A stretch of 42,192 nt of DNA from an uncultured Clostridia bacterium (GTDB lineage: Bacteria; Bacillota; Clostridia; Saccharofermentanales; Saccharofermentanaceae), in contig CAMHSJ010000014.1 of the NCBI GenBank assembly GCA_946187935.1, forward strand, positions 1-42,192, read 5' to 3'. Of this stretch, positions 1 to 6,292 are shown in pieces. The position numbers and the translations under genes are program-made. The notes beneath the pieces are model-generated. The model was given only the letters and a program-made list of their open reading frames with translations, was not told the origin of the DNA and did no database searches. Position 1 is the stretch's first letter. Every line of letters begins with the position of its first letter.

Positions 1-53
1 ACCCACGACCTATTCATTACGAGTGAATTGCTCTACCCCTGAGCCACATTGGC
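1..53 (-). tRNA. tRNA-Thr (CGU anticodon), 3' part cut off by the window edge
   Basis: Read on the minus strand, a 5' acceptor arm GCCAATG starts at 53. It is followed by a D-arm (GCTC...GAGC) and an anticodon arm ATTCA-CTCGTAA-TGAAT. The 7-base loop gives anticodon CGT, which reads the Thr codon ACG. The variable region and the start of the T-arm (GTGGGT) reach the window edge, so the 3' half is missing. A near-consensus promoter lies directly upstream. Confidence 0.93.
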
Positions 54-648: not shown

Positions 649-1827
649 TCAATGGTGGAATAATCTTATCCCTGTAAATGCCATTGCCATGCCATACTTA
701 TTGCATGTCATGATGACATGGTCGTCACGGATGGAGCCGCCGGGTTCTGCGATATATTTTACGCCGCTCTTATAAGCGCGCTCAATGTTGTCGCCGAACG
801 GGAAGAATGCGTCAGAACCTAATGCAACATCAGTATTCTTGGCAAGCCACTCCTTCTTCTCTTCCCTTGTCAAAACTTCAGGCTTCTCCTTGAAGAGAGT
901 CTGCCATGTTCCGTCACGGAGAACATCCTCGTATTCATCAGAGATATAAACATCAATGGTGTTGTCTCTGTCAGGTCTTCTGATATCATCAACGAACTTG
1001 AGACCCATGACCTTCGGATGCTGTCTGAGCCACCAGATATCAGCCTTGTTGCCTGCGAGCCTCGTGCAGTGGATCCTGGACTGCTGGCCTGCGCCGATAC
1101 CTATTGCCTGACCGTCCTTAACGTAGCAAACAGAGTTGGACTGTGTGTACTTAAGAGTGATAAGTGCGATAAGAAGATCGTTCTTCTTGTCTTCAGGGAT
1201 ATCCTTGTTGTCTGTAACGATATTGGAAAGGAGCTCGTCATTGATGTCGAGTTCATTTCTTCCCTGCTCGAATGTTACGCCGAATACCTGCTTGCGCTCG
1301 ATGGGATCAGGTACATAATCAGGATCGATCTTGATGACGTTATATGTGCCCTTACGCTTTGTCTTCAAGATCTCAAGAGCCTCGGGAGTATAGTCAGGAG
1401 CGATAACGCCGTCTGATACTTCACGCTTGAGCATAGTAGCTGTAATTGCATCGCATGTATCTGAGAGAGCTACGAAGTCACCGTACGAAGACATTCTGTC
1501 AGCGCCTCTTGCTCTTGCATAAGCGCATGCTATGGGAGAGAGCTCACCGAGATCATCGACAAAATAGATCTTTGATTCTGTCTCAGACAGAGGTCTTCCT
1601 ATTGCGGCACCTGCAGGTGAAACGTGCTTAAATGAAGTAGCTGAAGGCATGCCTGTAGCCTTCTTGAGTTCTCTTGCGAGCTGCCAGCCGTTAAAGGCAT
1701 CGAGAAGATTGATATAACCGGGCTTGCCGTTTAAAACCTCGATGGGAAGTTCCCTGCCGTCTTCCATAAATACTCTGGAAGGCTTCTGGTTAGGGTTGCA
1801 GCCGTACTTAAGTGCCATCTCGTTCAT
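649..1827 (-). CDS. Stand-alone AICAR formyltransferase (PurH C-terminal domain only)
   Basis: The enzyme transfers a formyl group from 10-formyl-tetrahydrofolate to AICAR to make FAICAR, the ninth step of IMP synthesis. The 392-residue protein begins directly at the AICAR transformylase domain (KYGCNPNQ near residue 7; standard PurH has RYGxNPHQ at this point). It keeps the catalytic Lys-His pair in SFKHVSPAG near residue 67. The roughly 200-residue MGS-like IMP cyclohydrolase domain that precedes it in ordinary bifunctional PurH (about 510 aa) is absent. The missing activity is supplied by the PurO-like gene 24 bases upstream. The start ATG has AAGGAG 8 bases before it. This single-domain form is known from Clostridia; I am sure of the family and domain content. 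Confidence 0.93.
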   Translation of the reverse strand: MNEMALKYGCNPNQKPSRVFMEDGRELPIEVLNGKPGYINLLDAFNGWQLARELKKATGMPSATSFKHVSPAGAAIGRPLSETESKIYFVDDLGELSPIACAYARARGADRMSSYGDFVALSDTCDAITATMLKREVSDGVIAPDYTPEALEILKTKRKGTYNVIKIDPDYVPDPIERKQVFGVTFEQGRNELDINDELLSNIVTDNKDIPEDKKNDLLIALITLKYTQSNSVCYVKDGQAIGIGAGQQSRIHCTRLAGNKADIWWLRQHPKVMGLKFVDDIRRPDRDNTIDVYISDEYEDVLRDGTWQTLFKEKPEVLTREEKKEWLAKNTDVALGSDAFFPFGDNIERAYKSGVKYIAEPGGSIRDDHVIMTCNKYGMAMAFTGIRLFHH

Positions 1828-1851
1828 AAAATTATCTCCTTAGCAAATTGA

Positions 1852-2565
1852 TTATTTGTTCTTGTTTACGATCCTGGTGTCTGCTTCGCCTGTTGCGATG
1901 TCGATGTATCTGACGAAGAGCGAAACCTTATTGTCCTCATTGAGGCTCTCCCATACTTCGTTTGTGAAAGCATCGATGTCGCCCTTGATATCGACCTTCT
2001 CAGGCTCACCCTCGAATGAAGGAAGCGGATTTCCGTCACCGATATAGGTGTGGATGAATCTGCCGACACCGGCCTTGGGATTTGAATATGTGAATGTATG
2101 ACGCTCGCAGGAAGAAGGATCGCCGTCGGCACTCTTTAAGATGGACATGGCAAAGTTAAACGTGCCGCTCTCAACGTGCATGATGCCTGAAATCCTGGGG
2201 GTATAGTTAGGAGCATCGTCCTCGAACTCCCTGCCCCTCAATGACTGCTCGAATGTCTGCTGCTTATCCATGAGCTCGTAGATGGTATCAGTCTGGTCGC
2301 CGTTGGTAACGATCGTCTTGTTTCCCAATACTCTTACGGGAGAATAGATGATGAGGTGCGGATCCGTAAGCTTGGAAGGATCGAAAGCCTCTGTCTTGAT
2401 GCCGTCTTCTGTTGCAGTAAAGACCCTGTTTCTCGAATTAACGCTCCTGCCCATGATGAAGTAAGCCGTTACAGCGTACTTGCCGTCCTCGGACCTGCCG
2501 ATAACGATACCTCTTCCGGGATAGGAATTAGCCTTCAATGCCTGACCTAGATCTTTGGTTTCCAT
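1852..2565 (-). CDS. purO: IMP cyclohydrolase, archaeal PurO-like family
   Basis: The protein closes the ring of FAICAR to give IMP, the last step of the pathway. The 237 residues match the PurO/IMP_cyclohyd family rather than the PurH cyclohydrolase domain. Visible marks are the N-terminal YPGRGIVIG (about 15-23) and RSVNSRNRVF (about 40-49), and a C-terminal half with RFIHTYIGDG. The gene sits between purN and the stand-alone AICAR formyltransferase with gaps of 14 and 24 bases, so the last two steps are encoded by adjacent, separate genes. The ATG at 2565 has AAAGGAGG 7 bases upstream. PurO was first described in methanogenic archaea, and bacterial copies occur in Clostridia. The symbol is used by family resemblance. 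Confidence 0.88.
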   Translation of the reverse strand: METKDLGQALKANSYPGRGIVIGRSEDGKYAVTAYFIMGRSVNSRNRVFTATEDGIKTEAFDPSKLTDPHLIIYSPVRVLGNKTIVTNGDQTDTIYELMDKQQTFEQSLRGREFEDDAPNYTPRISGIMHVESGTFNFAMSILKSADGDPSSCERHTFTYSNPKAGVGRFIHTYIGDGNPLPSFEGEPEKVDIKGDIDAFTNEVWESLNEDNKVSLFVRYIDIATGEADTRIVNKNK

Positions 2566-2579
2566 AAACTGAACCTCCT

Positions 2580-3200
2580 TTATCTTATATATGCAATATT
2601 GTTGTTTATCTCAACTCTGCCGTCTGCTATGAGCCTTATGGCCTTGGGAAGGATCTGCCATTCGCATTCTTCCATAACCCTCTTCTGGAGGATCTCAGGC
2701 GTATCATCAGGCAGAACATCGACTGACTTCTGTATGAGGATCGGACCTGAATCGTAATTCTCGTTAACAAAATGAACCGTAGCGCCGCTGACCTTGACTC
2801 CTCTTGCAAGCGCTGCAGCATGCGGTTTGATGCCGTACATTCCAGGGCCGCAGAAAGAAGGTATCAGAGCCGGATGTATGTTGATTATCCTGTTCGAAAA
2901 GGCCCCTACTATCTTGGGTCCCAAAAGCGACAGATATCCGGCAAGAACGATAAGCTCGGCTCCGGACTCAATTACTGCATCAGTCATGGCCTGATCCCAG
3001 TCAGCCTTGGACGGATAATCCTTGGATCTTACGACAACGCTCTTGATGTTATTTTGGGCAGCCCTCTCGAGAGCATATGCTTCAGGTGATGAAGATAAGA
3101 CGAGAACTATCTCGATATCCTTAAGGATACCCGTCTTGGTGTTATCTATTATCGCCTGCAGATTAGTTCCGCCGCCTGATACAAATACTGCGATCTTCAT
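2580..3200 (-). CDS. purN: Phosphoribosylglycinamide formyltransferase (GART), PurN type
   Basis: The enzyme formylates GAR using 10-formyl-tetrahydrofolate, the third step of purine synthesis. The 206-residue length is normal for PurN. The N-terminal Rossmann-type phosphate loop reads VSGGGTNLQAI (about 8-18). The folate and catalytic region has the canonical Asn-His-Asp set: NIHPALIPSF (about 107-116) and later ENYDSGPIL with the catalytic Asp. It lies between purF (14-base gap) and purO. The start is the ATG at 3200 with AGAGG upstream. Nothing is unusual. Confidence 0.96.
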   Translation of the reverse strand: MKIAVFVSGGGTNLQAIIDNTKTGILKDIEIVLVLSSSPEAYALERAAQNNIKSVVVRSKDYPSKADWDQAMTDAVIESGAELIVLAGYLSLLGPKIVGAFSNRIINIHPALIPSFCGPGMYGIKPHAAALARGVKVSGATVHFVNENYDSGPILIQKSVDVLPDDTPEILQKRVMEECEWQILPKAIRLIADGRVEINNNIAYIR

Positions 3201-3214
3201 ATTAGCCTCTTAAA

Positions 3215-4624
3215 TCAGGAGTATGTAACCTTGTGTACGTCATCATTTGATGCATCGGGCATGCCTGCTATAAAGTTGCCGTCGAAACAAGCGGAACAAA
3301 CGCCGCAGTCGATCGTGTTAAGGCATTCCTTAAGTGCATCGAGAGTGATGTAGCCGAGAGAGTCGGCACCGATCATCTTTCCGATCTCTTCAACAGACAT
3401 GGTAGCTGCAGGAAGCTCAGTCTCAGATGAAGCATTTACTCCGTAGCAGCAGCCGAACTTGACCGGCGGAGATGCAAGACGGACATGGACTTCCCTGGCA
3501 CCGTTTTCGCGCAGGAATGAGATGATGTGCTTGGTTGTAGTACCTCTTACGAGAGAGTCGTCAACTATCGCGATCCTCTTGTCCTTGATGGCTGTCTTAA
3601 GAGCAGCGAACTTCATCCTTACTGCGAGTTCTCTTTGAGTCTGAGTGGATTTGATGAACGTTCTGCCTACATAGCGGTTCTTAAGAAGTCCTGCACCGTA
3701 AGGAACACCGAGACCTGCTGCAAATCCTTCTGCGGCAGCATTTCCGGAGTCCGGTGCACCTATAACGAGATCAACGTCACAGGGGTGAAGCTTAGCAAGA
3801 GCCAAACCTGCCCTGTATCTGGAATCGAAAATGCTCATGCCGTCAATGACCGAGTCAGGTCTTGCAACGTAAACGTATTCAAAGATGCAGACCTTGCCGT
3901 CCTTCTTATTTGTTTCGCTCTGGTTATAGAACAAAGACTTAACGCCTTCAGTAGAGATCGAAACGACCTCACCGGGCTCGATATCTCTTACAAAATCTGC
4001 TCCTATAGCGTCAAGGGCGCAGTTCTCGGATGAAAGGACATAAGTATCACCAATCTTTCCGAGGCAAAGAGGCCTTAAGCCGTAAGGATCCCTGACGCCG
4101 ATGATGCGGTCTTCTGCCATGAAGATCATTGCGTAAACGCCGTGGATCTCCTTCATGGTCTCAAGGACCGCACTCTCACTGTCTTCTGTCTTGATGCGGT
4201 TTCTCGAAAAGAGCGAGAGGATGATCTCGGAATCCGTATTTGTCTGGAAGATGGCGCCCTGGTTCTTCAATTCTTCCCTGATGGCATTATCGTTCATTAT
4301 GACAGAATCTGATGTAAGACCGATGTTGCCGACCCTGGACTTGATGATGATGGGCTGGATGGCATCTGTGCCTGATTCTCTGGGAGAGCCGCCCCTGGCA
4401 TGTCCTATGGCGGAGAAACCCTCAAGAGCCGATAAGGTAACTTCATCGAAGACATCAGTTACGAGACCGGGGTTCTTATGAATAAGAAAGGAACCTCCGG
4501 CATTAACAGCTATGCCCGCAGATTCCTGACCCCTGTGCTGCAAAGAGAAGATCCCGTAGAAACAGTTGTGTATAACATCTGTTGTCTGTCCCTTTGTGTT
4601 AAAACATCCGATAATTCCGCTCAT
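3215..4624 (-). CDS. purF: Amidophosphoribosyltransferase with a degenerate glutaminase site
   Basis: PurF makes phosphoribosylamine from PRPP, the committed purine step. The 469-residue protein has the usual N-terminal glutamine amidotransferase domain (1-230) and C-terminal phosphoribosyltransferase domain with an intact PRPP loop VDDSLVRGTT (about 353-362). Cysteines expected for the Bacillus-type 4Fe-4S cluster are present (KVCIFEY, GCCYG, CGVCSACF). The N-terminus reads MSGIIG: the catalytic Cys1 of the MCG or CG motif is Ser (AGC). The oxyanion loop AHNGN is replaced by TSDSV at about 104-108, and RYxTxG is RGGSPR. In-frame codons upstream of the ATG offer no Cys. The start overlaps the purE stop as TAATG. 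It may be ammonia-dependent or use a Ser nucleophile. Confidence 0.9.
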   Translation of the reverse strand: MSGIIGCFNTKGQTTDVIHNCFYGIFSLQHRGQESAGIAVNAGGSFLIHKNPGLVTDVFDEVTLSALEGFSAIGHARGGSPRESGTDAIQPIIIKSRVGNIGLTSDSVIMNDNAIREELKNQGAIFQTNTDSEIILSLFSRNRIKTEDSESAVLETMKEIHGVYAMIFMAEDRIIGVRDPYGLRPLCLGKIGDTYVLSSENCALDAIGADFVRDIEPGEVVSISTEGVKSLFYNQSETNKKDGKVCIFEYVYVARPDSVIDGMSIFDSRYRAGLALAKLHPCDVDLVIGAPDSGNAAAEGFAAGLGVPYGAGLLKNRYVGRTFIKSTQTQRELAVRMKFAALKTAIKDKRIAIVDDSLVRGTTTKHIISFLRENGAREVHVRLASPPVKFGCCYGVNASSETELPAATMSVEEIGKMIGADSLGYITLDALKECLNTIDCGVCSACFDGNFIAGMPDASNDDVHKVTYS

Positions 4625-5145
4625 TACTTGTTTTCTCCTCTCTGCTCCAGCTTAGCCTGGAGATTAGCATCTTTCTTCTCGACAGAATTAGCAAGCTCTG
4701 CCTTATAGTCCTTAAGCTTATTGCGAAGTTCACCGTCCTTGATGGCAAGCATCTGGCATGCAAGGATAGCAGCATTGGCAGCGCCGTCTATGGCAACTGT
4801 CGCAACAGGGATGCCTGTGGGCATCTGTACTGTGGCATAAAGGGCATCCACGCCTGCAAGAGCGCCGCCCTTACAGGGAACACCGATCACGGGAAGTGTT
4901 GTATTAGCTGCAAGTACGCCTGCCAGGTGCGCTGCAAGTCCTGCTGCACCGATGATCACATTAAAGCCGTTATCTTCTGCTTCCCTGGCGAGCTTTATGG
5001 CACGGTCAGGCGTCCTGTGGGCTGAAGCTACTCTGACCTCAAACTCGACACCAAACTTATCGAAGATGTCAAAAGCCTTCTCAAGGATGGGGTAATCCGA
5101 ATCGGATCCCATTACGATCAATACCTTACCTGCTGTACTTGCCAT
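4624..5145 (-). CDS. purE: 5-(carboxyamino)imidazole ribonucleotide mutase (class I PurE)
   Basis: PurE rearranges N5-CAIR to CAIR. The 173-residue protein shows the class I signature: VMGSDSDYP near the N-terminus, the SAHRTP active-site loop (about 42-47), GLAAHLAGVLA (about 70) and a QMPTGIPVATVAI strand. A class I enzyme normally works with PurK, which is not in this window. Its TAA shares one base with the purF ATG, so the two are translationally coupled. Only 20 bases separate it from the CapA-like gene upstream, and I see no promoter or purine riboswitch in that gap. The C-terminal ~25 residues are a charged Lys/Glu helix beyond the core fold. Confidence 0.94.
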   Translation of the reverse strand: MASTAGKVLIVMGSDSDYPILEKAFDIFDKFGVEFEVRVASAHRTPDRAIKLAREAEDNGFNVIIGAAGLAAHLAGVLAANTTLPVIGVPCKGGALAGVDALYATVQMPTGIPVATVAIDGAANAAILACQMLAIKDGELRNKLKDYKAELANSVEKKDANLQAKLEQRGENK

Positions 5146-5165: not shown

Positions 5166-6263
5166 TCATTCGTCTTCCTGCGACCATCCAAGGCGCTTTA
5201 AGACCCTGTAATACTCAGTGGTTCCCCATTCATAAGGCTTGGGACAGAAGTCGTTTCCGGGTCTGGTCGAAGTCTGAGAATAAGGAATTACGTTCAGCTT
5301 ATAGTCTACGCAAGAAGTACCCTCTGCGTCCATAAGAAATTCGCATTGAATTATAACGGAATCGGGGTCGCTTAATGATATATTTCCACCAAAACAAAAG
5401 TTCGACAAGGAATAGCATATGTATTTGCCGTTGTAGATCTCTATCGGCTGCAGTCTGTGAGGATGTGTTCCGATGACTATGTCTGCGCCCGCATCGATCA
5501 GCCTGTGAGCCTGGCTGGTCTGCTCAGCAGTCTGGGTATAAGTTCCTTCAACGCCCCAGTGACAGGATGCGATTATGATGTCCGCGCCATCGCTCTTAAG
5601 CTGGTTTATGGCGGTGATCCCCTTATCTACCGAGGTGTTGTTGGCAAGCCCGAACATACCGATACGGACACCGTTTTCCGTCTCATAGATAGCTGTCTGG
5701 TTCTGATCGCTCCAGACGATGCCGTAGTCATCAAGGTTAGACTTGGTCTCGGTATAGCCTTCCTCGAGGAAATCCCTTGTATGGTTATTGGCCAGGTTTA
5801 CGCATTCTATTGAAGCCAGATTCAGCATCTCCAGGTCTTCCGGCTTCATGCCGAAGACAAACTGCTTGTCAGCGTGCGATCTGTTGTCGGTTACTGCGCA
5901 CTCGAGATTTACGAGCGTCATGTCGTCGTTCTCAAATATCTCCCTGCAGTTCTGGAAGCAGTACTCCATGTCCCCGTTAACGGTCTTGTCAAAGTTATTG
6001 GAAGCGGTTGAATTAACGTGCTCTGTCAGTGTGACATCACCTGCAAAGGAAACAAGAACGGTCTTAGGTGTGGGAGAAGGCGTGGGAGTCGTAGGTTCAG
6101 TAGTTTCTGAAGCATCTGATTCGGATGAGGCGCTGGTACCGACCGTATCAAGTACCATTGTGGTGTGTTCAGGTTCACCAACGGAAACAGAAGAGCAGCC
6201 TGCAACACTTAAAGCAATAAGAAGAGCGGTCATAACGCCCAGGGAACCAAGAAATCGTTTCAC
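5166..6263 (-). CDS. CapA-family lipoprotein (PGA_cap metallophosphatase-like)
   Basis: The 365-residue protein starts with a lipoprotein signal: basic MKRF, a hydrophobic core, then lipobox SVAGC with Cys at residue 23. A Ser/Thr/Pro linker (about 30-65) follows, then a calcineurin-like CapA domain. Visible motifs are SFAGDVTLT, VNLECAVTD, NLANNHTRD, ASCHWGVEG and GTHPHRLQP, matching the family's metal-binding residues. CapA/PgsA proteins are linked to poly-gamma-glutamate capsules, but many clostridial members have no capB or capC partners and none is seen here. I chose the GTG at 6263, 10 bases after GAGG, over the TTG at 6272, which is too close to that site. It lies 20 bases ahead of purE and may lead the purine transcript. 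Confidence 0.88.
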   Translation of the reverse strand: MKRFLGSLGVMTALLIALSVAGCSSVSVGEPEHTTMVLDTVGTSASSESDASETTEPTTPTPSPTPKTVLVSFAGDVTLTEHVNSTASNNFDKTVNGDMEYCFQNCREIFENDDMTLVNLECAVTDNRSHADKQFVFGMKPEDLEMLNLASIECVNLANNHTRDFLEEGYTETKSNLDDYGIVWSDQNQTAIYETENGVRIGMFGLANNTSVDKGITAINQLKSDGADIIIASCHWGVEGTYTQTAEQTSQAHRLIDAGADIVIGTHPHRLQPIEIYNGKYICYSLSNFCFGGNISLSDPDSVIIQCEFLMDAEGTSCVDYKLNVIPYSQTSTRPGNDFCPKPYEWGTTEYYRVLKRLGWSQEDE

Positions 6264-6292
6264 CTTACACAAACCTCAAAAAGAATAAGAAC

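Follow-up and report, generated by a model that had tools for sequence, protein, structure and literature searches.

The window (the whole stretch of DNA analysed, 42,192 nucleotides) is contig 14 of a genome of 1.95 Mb that is 91% complete. Open reading frames and profiles placed a purine operon on its minus strand, in the order purE, purF2, purN, purO and the AICAR formyltransferase gene (Table 1); the PurF homologue encoded by purF2 is termed F2 below. Instead of the bifunctional PurH found in the sister genera, window 649-2565 encodes PurO and a separate AICAR formyltransferase. A link between this replacement and the glutaminase loss described below was weakened by two genomes (G041 and G043) that carry PurO without F2. 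The gene encoding the PGA_cap-family protein was the upstream neighbour in 18/18 F2 loci of sister genera; it is present in sister genera with and without F2, and has no known purine role. A search for a riboswitch ahead of the operon found none: the sole Rfam match at gathering score was a tRNA at window 1-53 (8 sources).

Table 1. Features of the purine operon and of F2 in the window, and related genes elsewhere (L, loci in other genomes; P, database proteins).
Feature	Position or record	Strand	Basis
purF2 (F2), PurF homologue with dead glutaminase site and intact PRPP-transferase site, 469 aa	3215..4624	minus	ORF, profile, alignment
Ser codon at the catalytic Cys1 place, residue 2	4619..4621	minus	alignment
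Glutamine loop RGGSPR vs RYPTAG (E. coli 73-78), F2 residues 77-82	4379..4396	minus	alignment
Oxyanion loop TSDSV vs AHNGN (E. coli 99-103), F2 residues 104-108	4301..4315	minus	alignment
Asp131, equivalent to E. coli Asp127, kept; D 72/74, E 2/74	4232..4234	minus	alignment
Val253 at the front-channel Phe place (Phe260 of PMC12017579, excerpt)	3866..3868	minus	alignment
PRTase flexible loop, F2 residues 315-338, catalytic residues kept	3611..3682	minus	alignment
PRPP loop IVDDSLVRGTTT, F2 residues 353-364	3533..3568	minus	alignment
purE, stop codon overlaps the purF2 start (TAATG)	4624..5145	minus	profile
purN, GAR formyltransferase	2580..3200	minus	profile
purO-type IMP cyclohydrolase	1852..2565	minus	PF07826, 234 bits
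AICAR formyltransferase without cyclohydrolase half	649..1827	minus	NF005492, 735 bits
PGA_cap-family protein, upstream of purE	5166..6272	minus	profile
PurL of genus g11 with dead class-I glutaminase, beside Ser1 PurF	L332:10987-14655, L333:10847-14461, L334:10860-14465
Ser1 PurFs from the named taxa given in the text	P0162, P0195, P0201, P0205, P0208, P0210, P0218

The first-pass annotation of this DNA had read F2 as a PurF with Ser for Cys1, RGGSPR in the glutamine loop and TSDSV in the oxyanion loop, but with the PRPP loop and the Fe-S cysteines kept and the gene in a purine operon, and all of this was borne out by alignment and, for the operon, by profiles. Residues are numbered here as in mature E. 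coli PurF unless the window protein is stated. The translated frame begins MSGIIG, with Ser in place of Cys1. Arg73 is retained and the glutamine-loop motif Arg73-Tyr74-x-Thr76 is otherwise gone (R-G-G-S), and the oxyanion pair Asn101-Gly102 is Asp-Ser. The residues retained in the alignment include D127 (presumably an amino-acid/glutamine-pocket residue in E. coli PurF), Y258, K326, Y329, R332, T333, F334, I335, R342 and K349, followed by D366, D367, R371, G372, T373, T374 and L415. Cysteines 246, 392, 443 and 446 (window-protein numbering), which we take to be Fe-S ligands of the B. subtilis type, are likewise kept, and position 303 holds Asp instead of Glu throughout the F2 read, both dead and intact. 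In the profile search F2 scored 433.3 bits against TIGR01134 (cut-off 350), and a predicted model with a mean pLDDT of 85.2 kept the PurF fold (TM 0.86/0.88 to 1ao0). No upstream Cys start was found in the 9 further open codons 5' of the frame, indicating that F2 has no hidden propeptide-Cys start.

To describe the genus, 74 of its 77 F2 genes were read in the main alignment, and the Ser and loop changes, which the first-pass annotation had proposed to look for in relatives, proved to be conserved. Ser1 was present in 74/74 genes, whose products are, apart from the window protein itself, 62-92% identical to it; Gly102 was lost and Tyr74 replaced in 74/74, and Asn101 was lost in 72/74. Such constancy of Ser1 is far more than chance would give. 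Arg73 was R in 61 and K in 13. On the PRPP side, K326, Y329, R332, F334, I335, R342 and K349 as well as D366, D367, S368, R371, G372, T373 and T374 were kept in all 74, Thr333 was T in 73 and S in 1, Cys246 and Cys392 were found in 74/74, and Cys443 and Cys446 in 73/74 with 1 gap. Outside the 74, the F2 of G063 also has Ser1, and those of G032 and G071 are partial matches without N-termini. Among 120 protein-database matches to F2, the Ser1 column held 117 Ser, 2 cut-off sequences and the single protein P0091. The last (65% identical, on a contig of 1,808 bases) has an F1-like Cys start fused to an F2 body with dead loops, and is either an assembly chimera or a recombinant or gene conversion between F2 and F1, the second PurF of the genus.

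The direction of the change was read from the sister genera. In three of them Cys1, Asn101 and Gly102 were present in 18/18 F2 orthologues read, all 18 of these genes lay between purE and purN, and in 17 of the loci a PurH-like gene lay downstream (two of them were checked against the bifunctional PurH profile). Since orthologues at the same purE-F2-purN position keep Cys1-Asn-Gly, the glutaminase loss in the genus is derived. In the wider order Cys1 was found in 14/14 F2 read beside purE or purN, and in the fourth sister genus, g2 (G085 and G086), purE adjoins purN and F2 is not there. In the trees, the dead F2 of the genus were placed on one branch with 100% support (74 rows; in a second tree 13 rows, nested inside Cys1 F2), indicating that the loss in the genus most likely happened once. 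The glutamine loop varies among the sisters (RYPS, RFPD, RTPA), which suggests that the loop had drifted before Cys1 was lost. The F2 orthologue of G104 (L165:6476-7970) is split over two overlapping frames by an assembly slip or by decay.

A second, intact PurF, which had been proposed as something to search for, was found on contig 9 of the window genome. This protein, F1, has a propeptide and Cys (MAIHEECG), RYST and HNGN, is 43-44% identical to F2, and judged by its residues is an ordinary glutamine-dependent copy; the two copies therefore probably share part of their function but draw on different nitrogen donors. Across the 85 genomes of the genus, F2 matches were found in 77 and F1 matches in 76, and in the 46 genomes of high quality (≥90% complete, ≤5% contaminated) F2 was found in 44, F1 in 43 and both in 41. 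Most of the F2-less genomes of low completeness also lack the purN neighbour, suggesting that the operon is unassembled there. G049 holds a second F2 copy (L299), with Ser1 too. The location of F1 shifts: it adjoins glmS in 12/26 F1 loci read (L175-L177, L180, L181 and L185-L191; by BLAST, with the profile checked for two), and the remaining loci lie between radical-SAM and transglutaminase-like genes or elsewhere.

Genomes lacking one copy were found on both sides. In G041 (99% complete) and G043 (97%) purE is directly followed by purN, F2 is absent and F1 is present. The genomes without an F1 match are drafts, 64-97% complete, and in four of them (G023, G044, G072 and G079) the radical-SAM and transglutaminase genes, between which F1 lies in relatives, are adjacent, with no F1 match in the genome. 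F1 stands at that site in 6/6 near relatives of G023 and G079 read (G017, G033, G060, G053, G034 and G076). The solid case is G023, 94% complete, where the search yielded F2 and no further PurF. The position after glmS, at which F1 can also stand in this genus, holds no PurF in G023, purD is present, and PurL has the catalytic Cys. In G079, of the same group and 69% complete, the contig breaks off within glmS. G044 (64%) and G072 (68%) are doubtful as F1 losses, since F1 may have been relocated to a place adjoining glmS, its position in related groups; it is found there in the G072 relatives G003, G051 and G056, and in a group near G044 (G031, G084, G016 and G077 read) that falls in an ill-supported part of the tree. 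In G042 (94%) F2 is the only PurF match and the F1 site runs off the contig. G065 was dropped as an F1 loss since its radical-SAM match was a 45-47% relative in another setting. That either copy can be absent is the pattern expected if both copies can make phosphoribosylamine (PRA).

Ser1 PurFs also occur elsewhere in the order, on branches that, by sequence comparison, are separate from genus F2. Six more genomes, 92-96% complete and all with purE-purF-purM-purN-purD clusters, yielded no PurF other than such a protein. In genus g16 (G133 and G134; L297:3971-5419, L312) the PurF begins VSGVFG, Arg73 is changed to His and Asn101-Gly102 is kept; it is the only PurF found, the gene order is purE-purF-purM-purN/purD-purL (the purN part was checked in G133), and PurL keeps GICNG. 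In genus g11 (G123, G124, G126 and G127) the PurF, again the only one found, begins MSGIVG, Asn101 is changed to Asp and the Asp127 segment is deleted; the order is purE-purF-purM-purN-purD, with purL beside purE in 3/4 stretches read. The TIGR01134 cut-off was reached by 1/4 g11 PurFs (neighbours included in that frame), and G133 and G134 pass it. The glutaminase of g11 PurL is dead in 3/3 read, GICNGFQ being changed to GIGAGM and HGEG being gone, so that in g11 both glutamine-using steps toward IMP appear glutaminase-free.

The best 120 database matches to g11 PurF had 85 Ser, 32 Cys and 3 gaps at position 1, and the Ser1 matches included Tissierellia/Tissierellales, Schnuerera sp. xch1, Tepidimicrobium sp. 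and Treponema phagedenis. In all 85 of these Ser1 rows Asn101 was changed, to Asp in 82 and to Glu in 3. The best 120 matches to g16 PurF had 117 Cys and 3 gaps, the gapped ones starting MSG, MSG and MSV. In a tree of 116 chosen rows, made by a quick method with no bootstrap and with the N-terminal and glutaminase-loop columns left out, the Ser1/Cys1 distribution needed at least 5 changes, 4 of them forced by supported branches, and the Cys1 row of Tepidimicrobium xylanilyticum, already Asp101, nested among Ser1 rows. Possible intermediates, in which Cys1 is kept and the oxyanion Asn is already Asp (YDG), make up 16/32 of the Cys1 rows (P0173, P0176, P0180 and others).

F2 has lost the glutaminase Cys and the oxyanion pair and kept the PRPP site, and it is predicted, with good probability, to form phosphoribosylamine from PRPP and free ammonia. 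This prediction is well supported by comparison, namely by one derived genus-wide loss, the intact PRPP site, G023 and the separate recurrences. Ammonia would enter through the old glutamine pocket or through a widened front channel (Phe to Val) and would react with PRPP at F2, PurD would take the product, and the N-terminal domain would remain as a scaffold closing the active site. Of the two uses that the first-pass annotation had offered for such a protein, ammonia use is thus the one favoured by the comparison, and a Ser nucleophile is hard to reconcile with the additional loss of the glutamine loop and of the oxyanion Asn and Gly. Its statement that Cys1 variants of E. coli PurF keep ammonia-dependent activity agrees with the excerpted text of PMC3261824, in which the Cys1 to Ser enzyme is described as still using ammonia, with glutamine activity undetectable.

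The channel residues on the PRT side, Tyr258, Ile335 and Leu415, are kept in F2. NH3-dependent PRA synthesis is described in the excerpt of PMC12017579, together with simulations that gave a front channel containing Phe260 and gated at Arg333. In genus F2 the front-channel Phe position is V in 68, I in 4 and Y in 2 of 74, and the gate Arg is kept in 74/74; in the 18 sister F2 the Phe position is occupied by Leu (15) or Phe (3). The change of Phe to Val is not general, as Phe is present in 32/85 other Ser1 proteins and also in G133 and G134. Arg73 was found to bind DON in simulations (PMC7953260, excerpt), and since Arg73 and Asp127 are kept in the genus, the F2 pocket may still bind or sense an amino acid.

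For some rumen bacteria ammonia is the main or sole nitrogen source (PMC10499230, excerpt), the genus is mostly gut-derived, and the nearest named records, many of them of rumen or gut origin, carry the names of Saccharofermentans sp. and other Clostridia; ammonia-rich guts may have rendered the glutaminase unnecessary. A genus-wide switch of all amidotransferases to ammonia was rejected, since the GATase, PurL and GlmS motifs are intact: six class-I GATase genes of the window genome keep G-x-C-x-G, its PurL keeps GICNGFQ, and GlmS of G065, G023, G079 and G062 starts MCG with HNG (no GlmS was found in the window genome at its 91% completeness). As these other glutamine-dependent enzymes keep their Cys, ammonia supply has not removed glutaminases generally. 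On balance, and by a less confident judgement than for F2 itself, we incline to the view that feeding purine synthesis with free ammonia is a lasting mode of life for anaerobes in ammonia-rich surroundings and has evolved repeatedly. Several clostridial lineages would then have dropped the PurF glutaminase independently, some of them having no other PurF and one having dropped the PurL glutaminase too, which would place both glutamine-using steps to IMP on ammonia.

Some observations count against ammonia use by F2. One is the absence of F2 with F1 kept in G041 and G043, together with its absence in g2. Another is the invariance of Ser1, which is more than a pure scaffold would need. Ser1 itself may have a role, being Ser in every gene of the genus and again in separate lineages. 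Removal of the initiator Met favours a small residue after the start. The Ser1 codons of genus F2 are AGC in 58 and AGT in 16, one step from Cys, and the constancy of Ser may reflect this history together with the small-residue rule.

A role in which F2 merely assists F1, regulating it or joining it in mixed tetramers or another structure, without forming PRA, is unlikely. The occurrence of both copies in 41/46 high-quality genomes would suit such a role, but the PRPP-site residues are almost invariant, and the idea is weakened by genomes without F1, since G023 and some less complete genomes have F2 but gave no F1 match, and Ser1 PurFs elsewhere are the only PurF found. Still less likely is a working Ser1 nucleophile with which F2 would go on hydrolysing glutamine like other N-terminal-serine hydrolases. 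This would explain Ser in 74/74 genus genes and in 85/85 of the rows left among the best 120 g11 matches once Cys and gapped rows are set aside, and Arg73 and Asp127 are mostly retained; against it, the oxyanion pair is Asp-Ser in the window with the glutamine loop rebuilt, the Asp127 segment is missing from some other Ser1 lineages, and E. coli C1S is without detectable glutamine activity according to the PMC3261824 excerpt.

A comparably low probability is given to F2 joining PRPP to an amine other than ammonia in another pathway, for which the rebuilt pocket with Arg73 and Asp127 kept and the conserved PGA_cap neighbour without known purine role could speak; the operon is nevertheless made up of purE, purF2, purN, purO and AICAR formyltransferase, the sister Cys-Asn-Gly orthologues occupy the same place, and some genomes with PurD gave no F1 match. 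A sequencing error, which had been named as a possible refutation, a chimera or a decaying pseudogene is rejected as having next to no probability, since nothing in the window points to it and the internal-stop flags on the F2 matches of G063, G080 and G083 and the chimera-like P0091 contig are outweighed by the same changes in 74/74 genes from separate assemblies and by low dN/dS in both domains.

The median dN/dS of F2 was 0.064 for the N-terminal domain and 0.047 for the PRT domain (554 non-independent pairs), and that of intact sister F2 was 0.048 and 0.035, respectively (82 non-independent pairs). F2 is under strong purifying selection, and the N-terminal/PRT ratio is about the same as in the sisters, indicating that selection still acts on the dead domain.

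In teaching, purine synthesis is said to need glutamine for its first committed step. If the ammonia-using reading of F2 is true, free ammonia can supply this step in vivo, and annotation by TIGR01134 can overstate glutamine use, since its cut-off is exceeded by F2 and by the Ser1 proteins of G133 and G134. In addition, a nitrogen-rich habitat would be linked to loss of a domain's catalysis without loss of the domain, and the ammonia proposal made for archaeal PurF' would become directly testable in bacteria.

Compared with classical PurF (EC 2.4.2.14; E. coli 1ecb, B. subtilis 1ao0), F2 is alike in whole-length homology, fold, PRPP and flexible loops, Fe-S cysteines and purine operon, but it has no Cys1, propeptide, full glutamine-loop motif or Asn-Gly oxyanion pair. 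The E. coli C1A and C1S laboratory mutants also have Cys1 replaced and keep ammonia activity (as cited in the excerpt of PMC3261824), whereas F2 is natural and genus-wide and has lost most of the remaining glutaminase site too. The divergent PurF-like paralogues that the first-pass annotation had mentioned for Clostridia are indeed present and were distinct from F2 in alignment. These (G140b and G147b; also G141, and a fragment in G139) are PurF-derived like F2, with Gly for Cys1 where the start was read (MGG), but they are 27-36% identical to F1, score 183-196 bits against TIGR01134 and are altered in the QHRGQ, glutamine-loop and flexible-loop regions, and F2 does not belong with them by alignment. 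Divergent PurF-like paralogues with a changed flexible loop (L322, L323 and L320; two starting MGG and the third cut off at the start) come from other families of the order.

Among the literature matches listed (titles and abstract starts), no bacterial PurF without glutaminase was found. Within these matches, and as far as the searches show, a bacterial clade in which the direction of loss is shown by same-locus Cys1 orthologues is new, and so are genomes with only a dead-glutaminase PurF found, the recurrence, and a lineage with PurL changed alike. The closest known system is archaeal PurF' of Crenarchaeota, which in the excerpt of PMC3261824 is, like F2, a second PurF without Cys1 near purine genes, with an intact PurF in the same genome; ammonia use was already proposed for it by its authors in 2011, as a suggestion. 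Mlab_0150 of Methanocorpusculum labreanum, described in the same excerpt, is likewise a second PurF accompanied by an intact one, and shares with F2 the Ser in place of Cys1. By that published description, on which the likening rests, many PurF' have Ala or Val where F2 has Ser, and PurF and PurF' occur together in every crenarchaeon covered; in the present set, by contrast, some genomes yielded no PurF besides the Ser1 form. The ancestry of F2, unlike that of PurF', was read from Cys1 orthologues at the same locus, and these orthologues in the sister genera argue for a separate origin of F2 and the archaeal PurF' cluster.
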